From NCBI RefSeq assembly GCF_005543295.1, contig NZ_SRSG01000010.1:192362-256361 (forward strand): a stretch of 64,000 nucleotides of DNA. Reading direction: 5' to 3'. Under the pieces are notes generated by a model. The model was not told the origin of the DNA. It ran no database searches and saw only the letters and a program-made list of their open reading frames with translations. Every line of letters begins with the position of its first letter. Positions within the stretch are counted from its first letter, which is position 1. Source of the stretch: Halalkalirubrum salinum. Lineage in GTDB: Archaea; Halobacteriota; Halobacteria; Halobacteriales; Haloferacaceae. A program made the translations under genes and the position numbers. This document shows positions 36,077 to 52,407 of the stretch, in pieces.

Positions 36077-36481
36077 ATGACAGACACTGACAGCCACGAT
36101 GCCGCGACCGATTGTTCCGTCGAGACTGACGGCGGTGTGACCGCGGGTGCAGCACAGGCGCATCGACAGACAGACTACCTCAGCTCGGAGGTAAACCTGC
36201 TCAAGCCGAGTACGCCCTACATGCGCGAACACCTCCGCATCGTCTGGACCGGCTTCATTATCTGGGCGCTCGTTGTGTTCGGGCCGGTCACACTCACACG
36301 GCTGGCACCGGAGATGATGACCGTCGAGATGCCAATACTTGGATTTCCACTGCACTATTTCCTCGTCGCGATCGGCGCGCCCGGCGGTGCGTTGATCCTG
36401 TCGGCGTGGTACGCCTGGCGGCGAGACGCACTGGATGAGAAGTACGGAATCGAACACGACATCGTGGAGGGCGAGCCATGA
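36077..36481 (+). CDS. DUF4212 small subunit of sodium/solute symporter
   Basis: A 134-residue protein. A soluble acidic N-terminus is followed by YLSSEVNLLKPSTPYMREHLRIVW and two membrane helices (about 60-82 and 95-117). This is the small partner of VC_2705-type SSS transporters. ATG 36077 (MTDTDSHD) is used; the earlier frame is not conserved-looking. Its TGA overlaps the symporter ATG (ATGA), the usual coupling of this pair. Confidence 0.85.
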   Translation: MTDTDSHDAATDCSVETDGGVTAGAAQAHRQTDYLSSEVNLLKPSTPYMREHLRIVWTGFIIWALVVFGPVTLTRLAPEMMTVEMPILGFPLHYFLVAIGAPGGALILSAWYAWRRDALDEKYGIEHDIVEGEP

Positions 36482-38322
36482 GCAAAGCACTCACCATCGT
36501 TCTGCAGTCGGAGTTGCTCCCGGAGGGACTCAACGTCTCGTTCAAGACGCTGCCGGCGATCCTTGTGATCGGGATGCTCTTGGTGTTTATTGCGATCGGC
36601 TTCATTTTCCGGGTTGCTGATGCCGAGAACATGTGGGTTGCCGGGCGGTCGATCGGCAACCTCGAAAACGGGATGGCGATCGGTGCAAACTGGATGTCTG
36701 CGGCGTCATACCTCGGGATGGCAGCGTCGATCGCGCTGTCTGGCTTTTACGGGCTGGTGTTTGTCGTCGGCTGGACGACGGGCTATTTCATTTTGCTCAT
36801 CTTCCTGGCCGCACAGCTTCGCCGATTCGGCAAGTACACCGCACCAGATTTCGTCGGTGATCGGTTTAACTCAGACACGGCGCGGGCGATCGGCGCGGTC
36901 ACGACGTTCCTGATCGGGTTCGTCTACGCGATCGGACAGGCCCGCGGGATGGGCCTCGTTGGCCTGTACATTTTCGGCGATCTGGGTATTCTCGGTCTGA
37001 GCGGCTACCAGGCGATGGTCATCATCATGATGGCCATTACCGTCGGCTACCTGACGTTGTCGGGAATGTTGGGTGCGACGAAGAACATGGCCGTCCAGTA
37101 CGTCATCTTGATTATCGCGTTCGTCGCCGGACTGTACGCGGTTGGGTTCGTAAACGGCTACTCGACGGTGCTGCCACAGATCGAATACGGCGCACTCATT
37201 GGCGAGCTCAGTAGCGAATTCTCCGAGCCGTTCGTCGGCGAAGGCTACTACCTGTGGATCGCAACCGCCTTTTCGCTCATCGTCGGAACCTGCGGGCTTC
37301 CGCACGTCCTCGTGCGCTTTTACACGGTCGAAAACGAGCGGACTGCGCGGTGGTCGACCGTCTGGGGACTGTTTTTCATCTGCATCCTCTATTTGAGCGC
37401 GCCGGCGTTCGCGGCGTTCGGGACCGACCTGTACGGCAGTGAGCTCGGTGCAGTGTACGGTGATCCCGGGATGACCGCCGAGGCGGCCGACGTGATTGTC
37501 GTGCTTGCCACACAGCTTTCAGGGCTCCCGGAGTGGTTCGTCGGATTGGTCGCGGCTGGCGGTATTGCAGCGGCGATCGCAACCACCGCTGGGCTGTTCA
37601 TCGCCGGCTCCTCGGCGATCTCACACGACATCTACACGAACATCATCAATCCCGAAGCGACCCAGCGCCAGCAGGTCTTCGTCGGGCGGCTGAGCATCGT
37701 TGCGCTCGGAGTCATCACGACGCTCGCGGCACTGGATCCGGCGGCCCCGATCGCCGCGCTTGTCTCCTACGCGTTTTCGTTGGCCGGCGCGGTGTTGTTC
37801 CCGATGTTCTTCCTCGGAATGTGGTGGGAGAACACAAACAGACAGGGCGCGCTTGCAGGCATGACGACAGGGCTCACCATCTGGTTTATTCCAATGATAA
37901 ACGAAGTCGTCCCAACGTATATCAGCGGCCTCGATGCACCGCTGAACGCGACGCTCGAACAGTGGGTGCCTGCGATCGGCTCTGCGCTCGTCGCTGTCCC
38001 AATCGTGTTCGCAGTGACGATCGTCGTGTCGCTGCTCACCGATGAGCCGCCGATAGAGACAAAACGAATCGTCCGACAGTGTCACAGTCCAGAGCCGATG
38101 CGTCAACAGCAGACTGCCGAAGACGTTGTCGCAGCTGACGGTGGGGAAGACGTCGCGACCGATGGCGGCCAGGACGTCGCGACCGATGGCAGCCAGGACG
38201 TCGCGACCGATGGCGGCCAGGACGTCGCAACCGATGGCAGCCAGGACATCGCGACCGATGGCGGCCAGGACGTTGCGACTCATCGCGACGAAGACGTTGC
38301 GACGGACGGAGGTGAGTGCTAA
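36478..38322 (+). CDS. sodium:solute symporter (VC_2705/ActP-like) with repeat tail
   Basis: A 614-residue SSS-family transporter. About 13 membrane helices fill residues 20-525; MWVAGRSIGNLENGMAIGANWMSAASYLGM is the N-terminal sodium-binding region. The C-terminal ~75 residues are soluble and acidic, built from an eight-residue repeat (DGGQDVAT/DGSQDVAT) encoded by 24-bp units. Normal relatives are about 530-560 residues, so the tail is extra. The likely substrate is a short organic acid such as acetate given the acs gene upstream. Its stop overlaps the next start (TAATG). Confidence 0.85.
   Translation: MSKALTIVLQSELLPEGLNVSFKTLPAILVIGMLLVFIAIGFIFRVADAENMWVAGRSIGNLENGMAIGANWMSAASYLGMAASIALSGFYGLVFVVGWTTGYFILLIFLAAQLRRFGKYTAPDFVGDRFNSDTARAIGAVTTFLIGFVYAIGQARGMGLVGLYIFGDLGILGLSGYQAMVIIMMAITVGYLTLSGMLGATKNMAVQYVILIIAFVAGLYAVGFVNGYSTVLPQIEYGALIGELSSEFSEPFVGEGYYLWIATAFSLIVGTCGLPHVLVRFYTVENERTARWSTVWGLFFICILYLSAPAFAAFGTDLYGSELGAVYGDPGMTAEAADVIVVLATQLSGLPEWFVGLVAAGGIAAAIATTAGLFIAGSSAISHDIYTNIINPEATQRQQVFVGRLSIVALGVITTLAALDPAAPIAALVSYAFSLAGAVLFPMFFLGMWWENTNRQGALAGMTTGLTIWFIPMINEVVPTYISGLDAPLNATLEQWVPAIGSALVAVPIVFAVTIVVSLLTDEPPIETKRIVRQCHSPEPMRQQQTAEDVVAADGGEDVATDGGQDVATDGSQDVATDGGQDVATDGSQDIATDGGQDVATHRDEDVATDGGEC
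38137..38304 (+). repeat. 24-bp tandem repeat inside the symporter gene
   Basis: Seven consecutive 24-bp units start at 38137, 38161, 38185, 38209, 38233, 38257 and 38281. The five central ones differ at only a few bases. Units alternate GGC/AGC at one codon, giving DGGQDVAT and DGSQDVAT in turn, which suggests duplication of a 48-bp double unit. The first and last units are more diverged. Confidence 0.9.
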
Positions 38323-44441: not shown

Positions 44442-45281
44442 TCAAAAGCCGCCTTCCCGATCGAACATCTCCGCCGAGAGCGGTGCAGGATCACCCTCGG
44501 TGACGTTGTACCGCGAAAAATCAGTCACACCGGCGGCCTCGAGGATGTCTTCGACGTACTCGGCGTTGCCAGTGTACTCCGCAGGGTCATTCGAGAGCAT
44601 CGTAAGCACCGCGTCAGAGACGATTTCGGGCGTTCGCCAGTCGTCTTCGGTTCCCAGCCCAAAGTACCGCGTGGCGCGGGTGTCGACCGCCGTCTTCGGC
44701 CAGAAGGTGTTACAGCCGATGTCATGCGCTGCGAGCTCGTCGGCCAACGAGAGCGTAAGAAACGACATCCCGAGCTTCGACCAAGCGTAGGGGGCCAACC
44801 CGGGAGCGCGATCGACCGTTACCGGCGGCGCGTTCGTCAAGATCCAGCCCTCGTCCGAATCGGTCAGATGTGGGATAAATGCCCGCGAAACGAGGTACGT
44901 CCCACGGACGTTGACGTCTGTGAGCAGATCGAAGCGCTTCGGCGGAAGGTCCGCGACGTTCGCAAGCTGGATCGCACTCGCGTTGTTGATGACGATGTCG
45001 ACGCCGCCGAATCGGTCGATCGTCCGCTCGGCGGCCGCTTCTACCGCCTCGGGATCGCGGACGTCCAGTTGAACCGCGAGCGACTCAACGCCGCGTGCGT
45101 CGCATGCAGCAGCCGTCTTGTGAATTGTTCCCTCGAGATCGCTATCAGTGTCATCGACCGTCTTGCCGGTGGAGACCACGTTACAACCGGCATCCGCGAG
45201 CGCAAGGGCGATCGATTTACCAATACCGCGGGTCGTCCCGGTGATAAATGCGGTTCGGCCTGTGAGATCCGGAATGTCCAT
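44442..45281 (-). CDS. short-chain dehydrogenase, HSDL2-like, catalytic Ser replaced
   Basis: A 279-residue SDR. NAD(P) motif ITGTTRGIGKSIALALA; active-site YAWSK with Tyr and Lys in place; NNASAIQL as usual. PKTAVDTRATRYFG and the APPV stretch match HSDL2-like SDRs, which normally have SPP: the catalytic Ser is Ala here (ILTNAPPV). Activity may be lost or changed. ATG 45281 (MDIPDLTG) is used. It is divergent from the terpene synthase-like gene across 117 bases, so the two may be co-regulated. Confidence 0.85.
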   Translation of the reverse strand: MDIPDLTGRTAFITGTTRGIGKSIALALADAGCNVVSTGKTVDDTDSDLEGTIHKTAAACDARGVESLAVQLDVRDPEAVEAAAERTIDRFGGVDIVINNASAIQLANVADLPPKRFDLLTDVNVRGTYLVSRAFIPHLTDSDEGWILTNAPPVTVDRAPGLAPYAWSKLGMSFLTLSLADELAAHDIGCNTFWPKTAVDTRATRYFGLGTEDDWRTPEIVSDAVLTMLSNDPAEYTGNAEYVEDILEAAGVTDFSRYNVTEGDPAPLSAEMFDREGGF

Positions 45282-45351
45282 GGATCCACCACGATCGGTA
45301 GTGGGAAAACTGTACGGGTGTGGATTGTTTATTAGAGCAGCTCGATCGGAG

Positions 45352-45399
45352 TCCACCTCGGTGGATAGCAGATATAAGTAGGCTCTCGTGAAAGCGAGA
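45352..45399 (+). promoter_or_regulatory. palindromic operator, TATA box and start-site inverted repeat
   Basis: TCCACC-TC-GGTGGA is a perfect 6+6 palindrome (45352-45365). ATATAA (45372-45377) is a TATA box 22-27 bases before ATG 45399, as for a leaderless gene. Between TATA and start is a second inverted repeat, TCTCG..CGAGA (45384-45399). The arrangement suggests tight regulation of the terpene synthase-like gene. Confidence 0.6.
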
Positions 45400-46364
45400 T
45401 GTATACGATGTGTTCGCGGTTCAACACCGATCCCGAAGCAATACAGCAATCGATCGACTCAGTCACGTTGCCAGCCTGGTTCGATCCGGTGTTTAATCGA
45501 TACGAACGGACAATTGGTGACCGCGATCGGCTGCTCTGGAAGTGGCTATATCACATTATCCCGACGTTTCAGCTCTCATCAGTGCCAGAGACGTACACCG
45601 ACGCTGCACGGAACGCGAATTTCGGGATGTCGGTATACATGACGATTCTTGACGATATCGCCGAACGACATTGCGATCGGCCACTGTTCGAGGCCGGCAG
45701 ACAGATCCCGTTTTCGAAGGTGACCCCACGAGCACCGGCTGATGACGACGGTGCAGTTCTCTCGTTACTCGAGAAGGTATGGGAGCAAACCGAGTCGTTC
45801 CTCGCGAAGGGGCCCCGGGCGGACGAGTTCCGTGAGATCCTGGAGTTCGACCTCCGACAGTCGCTCAACACGATGGAGTACAATCGGCTCGTAAACACCG
45901 ACCCACGGATCGTGAGTTGTCGATCGATCGATCGCCGCGACGTGTATAATATGCTATTGTTCATTTATACTGACATTGATCTTGCGTTCTCGCCGCGGTT
46001 CGACCGCAACGAGCACGCCGCATTTCGTGACTTCGTGTGGGACACACAACGGCTCGCACGAATCAGCAACTGGGTGACCACGTGGGAACGGGAGGTCCAC
46101 GAAGGCGATTACACATCAAAAGTGGTCTTACGTGCGGTCGAACGGGGTATCGTAACAATGGACGGGTTGGACAACAACCCAGATGATGCCATTGCGCGCA
46201 TCCAGGCATCGGATATCGAATCCGAACTGTTAGCCGAGTGGGATCGGCGCTACACCGAGCTTCAATCGAATGAGATCGGGCTGGCAAGTATTGATGCCGC
46301 GGCGTTCTTAGACGGGATACAATACATTCGCATGGTCGATGAGGCACTTCGAGGAAAAAAATAA
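45399..46364 (+). CDS. class I terpene synthase-like protein
   Basis: A 321-residue, all-helical, soluble protein. D85-D86-I-A-E89 is a DDxxE motif. N224-x3-T228-x3-E232 (in SNWVTTWERE) is an NSE-type motif. The spacing, 139 residues, equals that of bacterial sesquiterpene cyclases. LNTMEYNRLVN lies between. The two motifs bind three Mg ions and the diphosphate of a prenyl substrate. No prenyltransferase FARM/SARM pair is present, so a cyclase is favoured. ATG 45399 is favoured by the TATA spacing; ATG 45408 is second. Confidence 0.65.
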   Translation: MYTMCSRFNTDPEAIQQSIDSVTLPAWFDPVFNRYERTIGDRDRLLWKWLYHIIPTFQLSSVPETYTDAARNANFGMSVYMTILDDIAERHCDRPLFEAGRQIPFSKVTPRAPADDDGAVLSLLEKVWEQTESFLAKGPRADEFREILEFDLRQSLNTMEYNRLVNTDPRIVSCRSIDRRDVYNMLLFIYTDIDLAFSPRFDRNEHAAFRDFVWDTQRLARISNWVTTWEREVHEGDYTSKVVLRAVERGIVTMDGLDNNPDDAIARIQASDIESELLAEWDRRYTELQSNEIGLASIDAAAFLDGIQYIRMVDEALRGKK

Positions 46365-46522: not shown

Positions 46523-47554
46523 ATGTCGGGGGAAGATCGATGCGTGTACCAGGAGGTGTTCGAGTCGATCCAGAACCCCGTATTGATCATCGACCCGAAC
46601 TTTGTCATCGAGGATGCAAATCCTGCTGCGGCCGAGTTTCTCGATTATCCGTCGAAAACGGCGTTACAAGGAACTGCGGTTTCATCGATGCTATACGATC
46701 CAGATGTTATTGAAGAAGTTGCCGAAGCAATCGCTGCGGGCAAGCCCTGGGAAGGCCGAACCGAACTCCTAACACACGGTGGGGAGGTAATTGCTGGACG
46801 CGGATCGGCCGTCCCGATTACTATCGATGGGGAGTTTACTTGTATCGCCGGGCTATTTGTTGATCTGACGAGACAGGAACAGTACAGCCGCTCGCTCAAC
46901 ATTTTGAACCGGGTGCTGCGGCACAATATCCGAAATGAGATAAACATCATCCAAGGGACACTTGGAATGATCGACGAAGACTGTCTCGCCGAGGGAGATG
47001 TCGAACGACTCAACTCTGTGGAAAAACGGCTGGCCACGATCGTCGATCGAGCCAATACTGCGCGGCGTCTTGAAGAGTTATTAGACTTTGATGACGACCA
47101 GATCGAAGCAACCGTTCGGATCGATGAACTGCTCTGTGAGGCGATCGCGACAGTCGCATCCGAGTACCCAGAGGCGAAGTTCGTGTTCCCAGACTCGTTC
47201 GGGGCACGCTATGCGACCGCGAACCGGACAGCGGTGCGGGCATTCGAGGCCGTGTTAGAAAACGCCGTCGAACACAACGATACCGCGGAACCCACTGTCT
47301 GGATCGACGTCAGCGAAAACGACGATTCGGTTACAGTGGAGATTGAAGACAACGGTCCAGGGATTGATCCCGAACGGGAGGATATCGTGTTCGGTCGCGA
47401 GGAAACAGACCAACTCAACCACGGAGACGGAATTAGCCTGTTTTTTGTCGATCAACTGTTCCGGATATACGGCGGCAGTGTAGGGGTCCAAGCGGGCGAG
47501 GAGGGCGGAGCACGATTTTGTTTGACGTTTCCACGGACAGGAGACACTGAGTAG
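46523..47554 (+). CDS. PAS-domain sensor histidine kinase
   Basis: A 343-residue kinase without membrane segments. The PAS domain covers about 12-118 (SIQNPVLIIDPNFVIEDANPA). H134 is the phospho-accepting His in VLRHNIRNEIN. The ATPase domain has the N box ENAVEHND, G1 DNGPGID, and a C-terminal GGARFCLTFP. No response regulator is adjacent. It has its own promoter-like ATTAATATA about 30 bases upstream. A cytoplasmic signal is sensed, ligand unknown. Confidence 0.88.
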   Translation: MSGEDRCVYQEVFESIQNPVLIIDPNFVIEDANPAAAEFLDYPSKTALQGTAVSSMLYDPDVIEEVAEAIAAGKPWEGRTELLTHGGEVIAGRGSAVPITIDGEFTCIAGLFVDLTRQEQYSRSLNILNRVLRHNIRNEINIIQGTLGMIDEDCLAEGDVERLNSVEKRLATIVDRANTARRLEELLDFDDDQIEATVRIDELLCEAIATVASEYPEAKFVFPDSFGARYATANRTAVRAFEAVLENAVEHNDTAEPTVWIDVSENDDSVTVEIEDNGPGIDPEREDIVFGREETDQLNHGDGISLFFVDQLFRIYGGSVGVQAGEEGGARFCLTFPRTGDTE

Positions 47555-48693: not shown

Positions 48694-49908
48694 GTGGACG
48701 ACTACCTGAGACGTACAGCCATCACCCGCATCACCGTGAGCGACGAGCAAGACGCTGAATTGCTCGAAGCCACGATTAGCGACTGGCAACATGGAGCCAC
48801 TCTCGCCTCCCAAATTGGATGGAGAGAAAACGAGGACTCCAAATATGATCTCCAACAACTCGCGTACTCGGATGTGCGCGAGGAAACTCGTCTCGGGAGT
48901 CAACACGCAATACTCGCCACTCACCAAGCCGCAAGCGCACTCAAAGGCGTCAACGAACTCAAAGACAAAGGCGGAAAAGTCTCGTGTCCCGAGTTCACCA
49001 GTCCAACCATCAAATACGATGCAAACACACTGACGCTCTTTGAGGACAACACTCTCTCACTCACCACCGTTGAGAGTCGGGTTCGGTGTGAACTTGTTCT
49101 CCCAGACGACGAGGACGGCTACCAGTACCAATTCTTGAACGACGACGAGTGGAGCGTTACCGAAAGCACGCTCACCGCTCGTGACGGTAACTACTTCTTG
49201 AACCTCGGGTTCCGTAAACCGAACCCGTTCGATGATCAAGAATCTCCTGCCGAGGACAGAACAGTTCTCGGAGTAGACCTCGGAATCGATAACCTCGCCG
49301 TCACCAGCACTGCACAGTTTAAATCGGGAAAGAAACTGGTTCACGACCACGACCAATTCGAGCAAGTTCGTGGCGGTCTCCAACAAACGGGGACTCAATC
49401 GGCTCACCGAACACTTGTTGCACGAGGCGACCGAGAAGAACAGTATTCACAAGACAAACTACACCGTGTCTCAAACGCGATTGTTGAGGAAGCCGTCGAA
49501 CATGAGTGTAGTCACATCGTGTTCGAGGACTTGGAGTATATTCGTGAACGGATGCCGAACGCGAGGAAGTTCCACCAATGGGCGCACCGCAAACTCGTTC
49601 AGTTCGTGACGTACAAAGCCGAATCACTCGGTGTTCGTATCGAGTTTGTGGACGCGGCGTATACGAGTCAGCGATGTTCTGAGTGTGGACACACGAGTCG
49701 TGGGAACCGACTTGTGCAAGCACGCTTCGAGTGTGAGAAGTGCGGTAAAGTGCTTCACGCAGATTACAATGCGGCGAAGAATATCGGGTGGCGGTTTGTC
49801 CGTCGTGGGCTAAAGGACTCACGGCGGACGGGCAACAGTCAACTTGCCCTCAAGTCAGGAACAGTGACGCCAAACCGGGGATTCGTCCCGTACTCCGTAG
49901 TGAGTTAG
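48694..49908 (+). CDS. tnpB: RNA-guided endonuclease TnpB (IS200/IS605)
   Basis: A 404-residue TnpB. The RuvC acidic triad is complete: D195 (VLGVDLGIDN), E278 (IVFEDLEYI) and D357 (ADYNAAKN). The zinc finger is C328-x2-C331 and C347-x2-C350. The N-terminal WED/REC part (LLEATISDWQHG) is the usual haloarchaeal form. GTG 48694 starts the protein, 29 bases after a TATA box. There is no tnpA. It appears intact and probably active with an omegaRNA derived from its 3' end. Confidence 0.92.
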   Translation: MDDYLRRTAITRITVSDEQDAELLEATISDWQHGATLASQIGWRENEDSKYDLQQLAYSDVREETRLGSQHAILATHQAASALKGVNELKDKGGKVSCPEFTSPTIKYDANTLTLFEDNTLSLTTVESRVRCELVLPDDEDGYQYQFLNDDEWSVTESTLTARDGNYFLNLGFRKPNPFDDQESPAEDRTVLGVDLGIDNLAVTSTAQFKSGKKLVHDHDQFEQVRGGLQQTGTQSAHRTLVARGDREEQYSQDKLHRVSNAIVEEAVEHECSHIVFEDLEYIRERMPNARKFHQWAHRKLVQFVTYKAESLGVRIEFVDAAYTSQRCSECGHTSRGNRLVQARFECEKCGKVLHADYNAAKNIGWRFVRRGLKDSRRTGNSQLALKSGTVTPNRGFVPYSVVS

Positions 49909-51448: not shown

Positions 51449-51847
51449 ATGGCTGAAGAGAAAACCCGCATCGATTTCAACGCTCCGCGGTCCCTCGTCG
51501 AGCGCGCCGATAGTATCGTTGAAATCCTCAATATCTCTCGCACTCGCCTCTTAATCGATGCTCTAGAAGACGAACTCGAAGAACTCGCAAACGACAAAGA
51601 ATTCCGTCGACGACTGAGCGAGGCCTACTACGATGGCCGGATCGAGTATGACACCGTCGAAGCAATCCTCGGTCGTGAAGAGGCGATGCGGTTGAAACTC
51701 CTCCGGGAATCAATTACCCGGACACCTCCCATACCCAAACTCGAGAGCGACCTCCCGAGTGATGAGACGTTCTATGACGGCGAAATTGTCGAATGGACAG
51801 AGTCGAGTTCGGCTGAATCATCGGATGACAAATCACGTGGATACTGA
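51449..51847 (+). CDS. ribbon-helix-helix antitoxin-like protein
   Basis: A 132-residue protein. The N-terminal RHH part is TRIDFNAPRSLVERADSIVEILNISRTRLLIDAL (6-39). The rest is Glu-rich and likely unstructured, suited to wrapping a toxin. It stops at TGA 51845-51847 overlapping the toxin ATG (TGATG). Upstream is the perfect palindrome operator. Confidence 0.75.
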   Translation: MAEEKTRIDFNAPRSLVERADSIVEILNISRTRLLIDALEDELEELANDKEFRRRLSEAYYDGRIEYDTVEAILGREEAMRLKLLRESITRTPPIPKLESDLPSDETFYDGEIVEWTESSSAESSDDKSRGY

Positions 51848-52407
51848 TGGCAGAACAGCCCGTCGCTGTCGTCGACACGAATGTACTATTAAATCTCGCG
51901 ACACCAGTCGTTGACGGGCGGACACGGGCACCTTCTGGTGCAGATCCACTCAAAACACTCCTCACCGCCTACGATGTTCATACACCCGCAAGTGTCCTTG
52001 GCGAGGTCACCGAAGCGACAGGGGACAATGACCTCCTCGCTGCAGCTGCCGATCTCGTGCTCCAAGCAGCCAATCATGTGACGACACACGACGTTGACGA
52101 TCGGACCAACGGACCACTCGATTATGGGCTCGATCGCGGAGAATCCGATTGTATCTGGCTGGCTAACGAATTGGAGACAGACCTGTTCATCACCGATGAG
52201 TTCAATACGACCAACTACTTGTTCGTCGCCCTCGGGCTCAATGATCGGAATATTCTCTTTACGACACCGCACATCCTCTGCACACTCGGAAGCCACGAGA
52301 TACTCCCCGCAGAATACGTCGATGCGGCACTCACCTACTACGTCGAAACAAAAAACTGGGATGCACAATATGTGACCCAATTGCGGCAACTGTATCTCCG
52401 CGATTGA
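51847..52407 (+). CDS. PIN-domain toxin
   Basis: A 186-residue PIN protein. The acidic residues are D10 (AVVDTNVLLNLA), E53 (VLGEVTEA), D101 in RGESDCIWLA and D117 in LFITDEFN. The length is above the usual 130-150 because of a C-terminal extension after about residue 130. It is coupled to the antitoxin by one-base overlap. Probable ribonuclease toxin of a VapBC-like module with an RHH antitoxin. Confidence 0.75.
   Translation: MAEQPVAVVDTNVLLNLATPVVDGRTRAPSGADPLKTLLTAYDVHTPASVLGEVTEATGDNDLLAAAADLVLQAANHVTTHDVDDRTNGPLDYGLDRGESDCIWLANELETDLFITDEFNTTNYLFVALGLNDRNILFTTPHILCTLGSHEILPAEYVDAALTYYVETKNWDAQYVTQLRQLYLRD

Follow-up and report, generated by a model that had tools for sequence, protein, structure and literature searches.

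Terpenes other than lipids and carotenoids are, to our knowledge, hardly documented in archaea, and the 64,000-nucleotide stretch of Halalkalirubrum salinum DNA analysed here (the window) raises the question of whether one of its genes encodes a class I terpene synthase. The gene, of which the genome holds a single copy, was found as an open reading frame of 321 residues at the position originally predicted (Table 1), except that translation probably starts at M4 (45408), giving 318 residues, because nearly all homologues begin at the M4 column; the closest relative, at locus L110 and 75% identical, has its first ATG out of frame. Both the window gene and the L110 relative are preceded, at about 30 bases, by a TATA-like element. 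Between this element and the probable start codon stands an inverted repeat, tctcg-tgaaag-cgaga (45384-45399), which is kept just partly in L110. Text searches of open-licence papers found none on an archaeal class I terpene synthase, and no paper on the family of the window gene was found in the open-licence literature. 'Terpene' gene clusters have been reported in Halomicroarcula (PMC8600319), and these may be carotenoid or squalene loci.

Table 1. Positions within the window of the candidate gene, its motifs and its neighbours
Feature	Position	Strand	Remarks
SDR oxidoreductase	44442..45284	-	divergent neighbour; NF006133/PF00106
TATA-like element gatataagt	45371..45379	+	read from the sequence, 29 bases 5' of the probable start
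Divergent class I terpene-synthase-like protein	45399..46364	+	321 aa as ORF; family alignment and profile-profile match
First metal-binding motif, D85-D86-I-A-E89 (DDxxE)	45651..45665	+	co-aligns with DDxxD of canonical terpene synthases
Second metal-binding motif, N224-WVT-T228-WE-R231-E232 (NSE/DTE type)	46068..46094	+	co-aligns with N382/S386/K389/E390 of the canonical enzyme
PAS-domain histidine kinase	46523..47554	+	PAS_9, PAS_4, HATPase_c; downstream on the same strand, 158-base gap

The protein carries DDIAE at residues 85-89 and N-x3-T-x3-E at residues 224-232, as the original prediction had read them, with 139 residues from D85 to N224. The same distance separates D243 from N382 in a canonical haloarchaeal terpene synthase at locus L145. 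The spacing is not a constant of the family, in which it varies from about 136 to 155 and is mostly 140, the commonest value in haloarchaea. The prediction had staked itself on conservation of D85, D86, E89, N224, T228 and E232 among homologues, and this held across 98 family members (88 haloarchaeal and 10 methanogen). D86, D194, N224, E232 and D237 are invariant in the family alignment (98/98), and position 89 is E or D in every member; position 228 is T in 97 and S in one, position 231 is R in 96 and K in two, and position 85 is D in 93, N in four and E in one. The double-aspartate pair of chain-lengthening prenyltransferases is absent, as had been noted, with no second DDxxD and N-x3-T-x3-E in its place.

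Homology to known terpene synthases is distant. Against PF19086 the window protein scored 16.1 bits, below the cut-off of 23.7, while 23 of the 33 members scanned matched this model, weakly but specifically (best 6.9e-8), and four matched the related PF03936, the other matches being to single scattered families. A genome search found the PF19086 cut-off passed in 48 of 382 Halobacteria genomes, mostly at loci of the window gene's family and at a few canonical enzymes. The canonical terpene synthases of genomes G204 and G249 (PF19086 E 1e-49 and 6e-44) were combined with bacterial plasmid terpene synthases as the reference for hhalign, which aligned the family with them at a probability of 88.5 and a score of 53.7 over 247 columns and, unconstrained, placed D85, D86, E89, N224, T228, R231 and E232 against their canonical counterparts. 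Twenty column-shuffled profiles scored 10.8-24.9 and a reversed profile 18.8. Trans-prenyl diphosphate synthases (PF00348) would have in common with the family an Asp-rich first motif and isoprenoid diphosphate substrates, but meaningful profile similarity is lacking (25.3 over 36 columns), and a prenyl synthase identity was rejected.

PF19086 enzymes such as pentalenene synthase and epi-isozizaene synthase have the same DDxx(D/E) and N-x3-(S/T)-x2-(K/R)-E motifs at like spacing, are of similar length, share a GD-containing stretch after the second motif, and match over about 250 profile columns with both motifs in register. They differ in that identity in the profile alignment is only about 12%, that the window protein falls under the Pfam cut-off, that in haloarchaeal members of the family the second motif has W at +1 and +5, and that the family conserves neither the usual diphosphate-sensor Arg nor the C-terminal RY pair. 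Canonical R336 aligns with the variable position 178, where the alignment is uncertain, and R469-Y470 has no aligned counterpart in what is a weak region of the hhalign alignment; at position 314 of the family H is commonest (71/98). Searches of solved structures by sequence and by profile gave no match. AlphaFold, run with an alignment of two sequences (the window protein and its relative L049), returned a poor, all-helical model with a mean pLDDT of 41.7; the Foldseek search with it, which gave no match at E < 0.6 and had terpene synthases among its noise, was set aside.

Relatives are present in 118 of the 391 Halobacteria genomes sampled (~30%); a scan of the genome collection with the single protein had recovered one relative, L049. 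A profile of 33 members extended the family to organisms of the same phylum, one group being distant (E about 1e-24), which we infer to be methanogens from phylum, size and base composition. Identity to the window protein ranges from 25 to 75% in the subset of members measured, each of six plasmid-borne homologues is annotated 'hypothetical protein' in RefSeq, and no relatives were found in the viral contigs searched. The family, which is archaeal and unnamed, keeps both metal-binding signatures of terpene-forming enzymes.

The remark that cyclic terpenoids are hardly known from haloarchaea is justified where this family is concerned, but a few haloarchaea do carry canonical terpene synthases. 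Those on plasmids of Actinarchaeum halophilum and Halocatena marina share the PF19086-type metal motifs with the window family and differ from it in having an SRPBCC-like N-terminal extension, an adjoining prenyl synthase gene, a retained RY pair and strong PF19086 matches (E about 1e-49 in Actinarchaeum); the profile of the window family misses them. On the Actinarchaeum plasmid (NZ_CP071308, 6305-12007; L145), bacterial-type terpene synthases stand beside prenyl synthase genes as two synthase-prenyl synthase pairs, and at L146 (1959-3913) the prenyl synthase gene adjoining the canonical synthase looks broken. As haloarchaeal terpene clusters, these loci make a more convincing case than the window gene does.

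The divergent SDR gene that had been proposed to oxidise the product is indeed present (NCBIfam NF006133, 348.8 bits against a cut-off of 250). Its direct adjacency to the terpene-synthase-like gene is confined to three close relatives (L109-L111) with general synteny, and the 49% identical gene of the Salinigranum plasmid locus has no SDR beside it, so that a role as general product oxidase was rejected and the SDR is probably not part of the terpene-synthase system. Elsewhere in the window we observed a transporter-like membrane protein with a C-terminal series of DVATDGGQ/DVATDGSQ repeats (36478-38322), a TnpB-like protein with an OrfB/Cas12f1-like TNB domain (48694-49908), and an overlapping pair of small ORFs that by eye resembles an antitoxin and a PIN-type toxin (51449-52407).

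The recurrent partner is instead a sensor-regulator gene, which the original prediction had passed over. The PAS-domain kinase of the window occupies the same position in L110, L111, L112 and the Salinigranum plasmid, where it lies 3' of the gene on the same strand. The Halobellus locus has a divergent bacterio-opsin-activator protein and HalOD1, and at the Halobaculum locus a PAS/GAF/BAT/HTH_10 protein and HalOD1 lie downstream; in two Halorussus species an HTH regulator (FilR1-type in the one scanned) starts within a few bases of the gene end and is followed by HalOD1. The Natrinema locus examined had no sensor-regulator neighbour. The Bat (bacterio-opsin activator) regulators and HalOD1 proteins, with PAS, GAF, BAT and HTH_10 domains among them, are partners of the family and not its homologues. 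The clade of L124, L125, L142 and L143 is without a close PAS or Bat gene; there the neighbours are a divergently oriented gene for a metallo-beta-lactamase-fold-like protein and another small gene that is conserved.

Because gene calls at high G+C gave shadow ORFs (such as a suspect 967-residue one at L113), the neighbour statistics were taken from profile searches of all reading frames and from Pfam. Of the 88 haloarchaeal loci, 36 (41%) have a PAS kinase, Bat-type or HalOD1 gene no more than 1 kb away, as do six of the ten methanogen loci, against about 10% of random anchors, which were drawn from 39 control stretches of haloarchaeal genomes carrying the family. After thinning at 60% identity the counts were 14/43 within 1 kb (p 6e-5) and 20/43 within 2 kb (p 9e-8), and at 50% identity 8/29 (p 0.007) and 13/29 (p 3e-5), respectively. 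The regulator profiles had been seeded from the neighbours and then rebuilt on all matches, and an unseeded Pfam count was therefore added. It gave PAS_9 15, HalOD1 9, HATPase_c 8, BAT 7 and HTH_10 7 in 135 neighbour proteins, compared with HTH_10 2 in 135 control genes; the other four were not among the best 25 control families listed, the last of which had one member, so that their true counts are at most about 1. A quick tree, approximate since several branches are long, implies no fewer than 12 changes of arrangement and no fewer than seven of regulator presence.

Taken together, we consider the protein, at a probability of roughly three in four, to be a class I terpene synthase of divergent sequence that is partnered by a sensor-regulator gene. 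The motifs and their conservation, the distant homology to terpene synthases and the regulator association are shown, while the fold, the chemistry, the substrate and the direction of regulation are what we infer. The original interpretation is thus kept in part: motifs, PF19086 matches and the profile match make the protein class I terpene-synthase-like, but 'cyclase' is unproven, as the product could be acyclic. In the proposed mechanism, D85, D86 and E89 together with N224, T228 and E232 would hold a trinuclear Mg2+ cluster for the binding and ionisation of a prenyl diphosphate (GPP, FPP or GGPP); quenching of the allyl cation would then give a terpene hydrocarbon or alcohol, which may or may not be cyclic. 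Lacking a conserved sensor Arg and RY pair, the family must treat the diphosphate differently in its details and would grip it with other residues, plausibly the conserved R42, R210, R221 and R231. The paired PAS-type sensor kinase or Bat-type regulator would most likely control the timing of terpene production. The score below the PF19086 cut-off, the lack of a solved-structure match, the low-confidence fold model and the loss of the sensor Arg and RY pair speak against a terpene synthase, as do the N (four members) or E (one) at the first Asp and the recurrent neighbour families, which include no prenyl synthase; the genome of H. salinum itself encodes two PF00348 prenyl synthases.

The loss of the sensor Arg and RY pair and the neighbour families, with no prenyl synthase among the recurrent ones and only two P450s in 135 proteins, would also suit a class I fold protein that binds prenyl diphosphates and metal and serves the PAS/Bat regulators as their sensor or partner, not as a terpene-forming enzyme, a reading also favoured by the strength of the regulator association. 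We regard it as unlikely, because a pure binder need not keep the metal-cluster residues, T/S228 and R/K231 included, that 98 members have kept. Some terpene synthases prenylate other acceptors, and although the motifs specify that an allylic diphosphate is ionised, they do not settle what becomes of the cation, which leaves room for another class I isoprenoid enzyme, either a prenyltransferase whose acceptor is not a terpene or a lyase with an acyclic prenyl alcohol as its product; the second motif is however of the N-x3-S/T-x3-E lyase type and the profile is unlike that of chain-lengthening prenyl synthases, making this alternative very unlikely. Alternatively, the regulator association might have no functional meaning and follow simply from how numerous PAS kinases and HalOD1 genes are in haloarchaeal genomes. 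A single genome can hold as many as 49 stand-alone HalOD1 copies (PMC5847659), the loci share a common descent, and 47 of the 98, one large clade included, are without such a neighbour. Against this stand the lower frequency at random sites in genomes that carry the family, the excess that persists through both thinnings, the commoner regulator domains among neighbours than among random genes in the families listed, and arrangements that differ between clades, and we hold chance abundance to be similarly improbable as an explanation.

A bolder extension of the preferred terpene synthase reading, which we put forward as an unlikely one, is a widespread archaeal system of terpenoid signalling, in which the synthase would make a small diffusible terpene sensed, in haloarchaea and methanogens alike, by the partner PAS/GAF kinase or Bat-type regulator. 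The family widens the range of sequences known for class I terpene synthases. It occurs in about 30% of sampled Halobacteria as well as in methanogens, keeps its metal motifs intact and recurs beside a regulator, so that the question can be tested directly in culturable organisms, and the retention of the motifs alongside sensor-regulator neighbours suggests a regulated and largely unstudied terpene chemistry in archaea.
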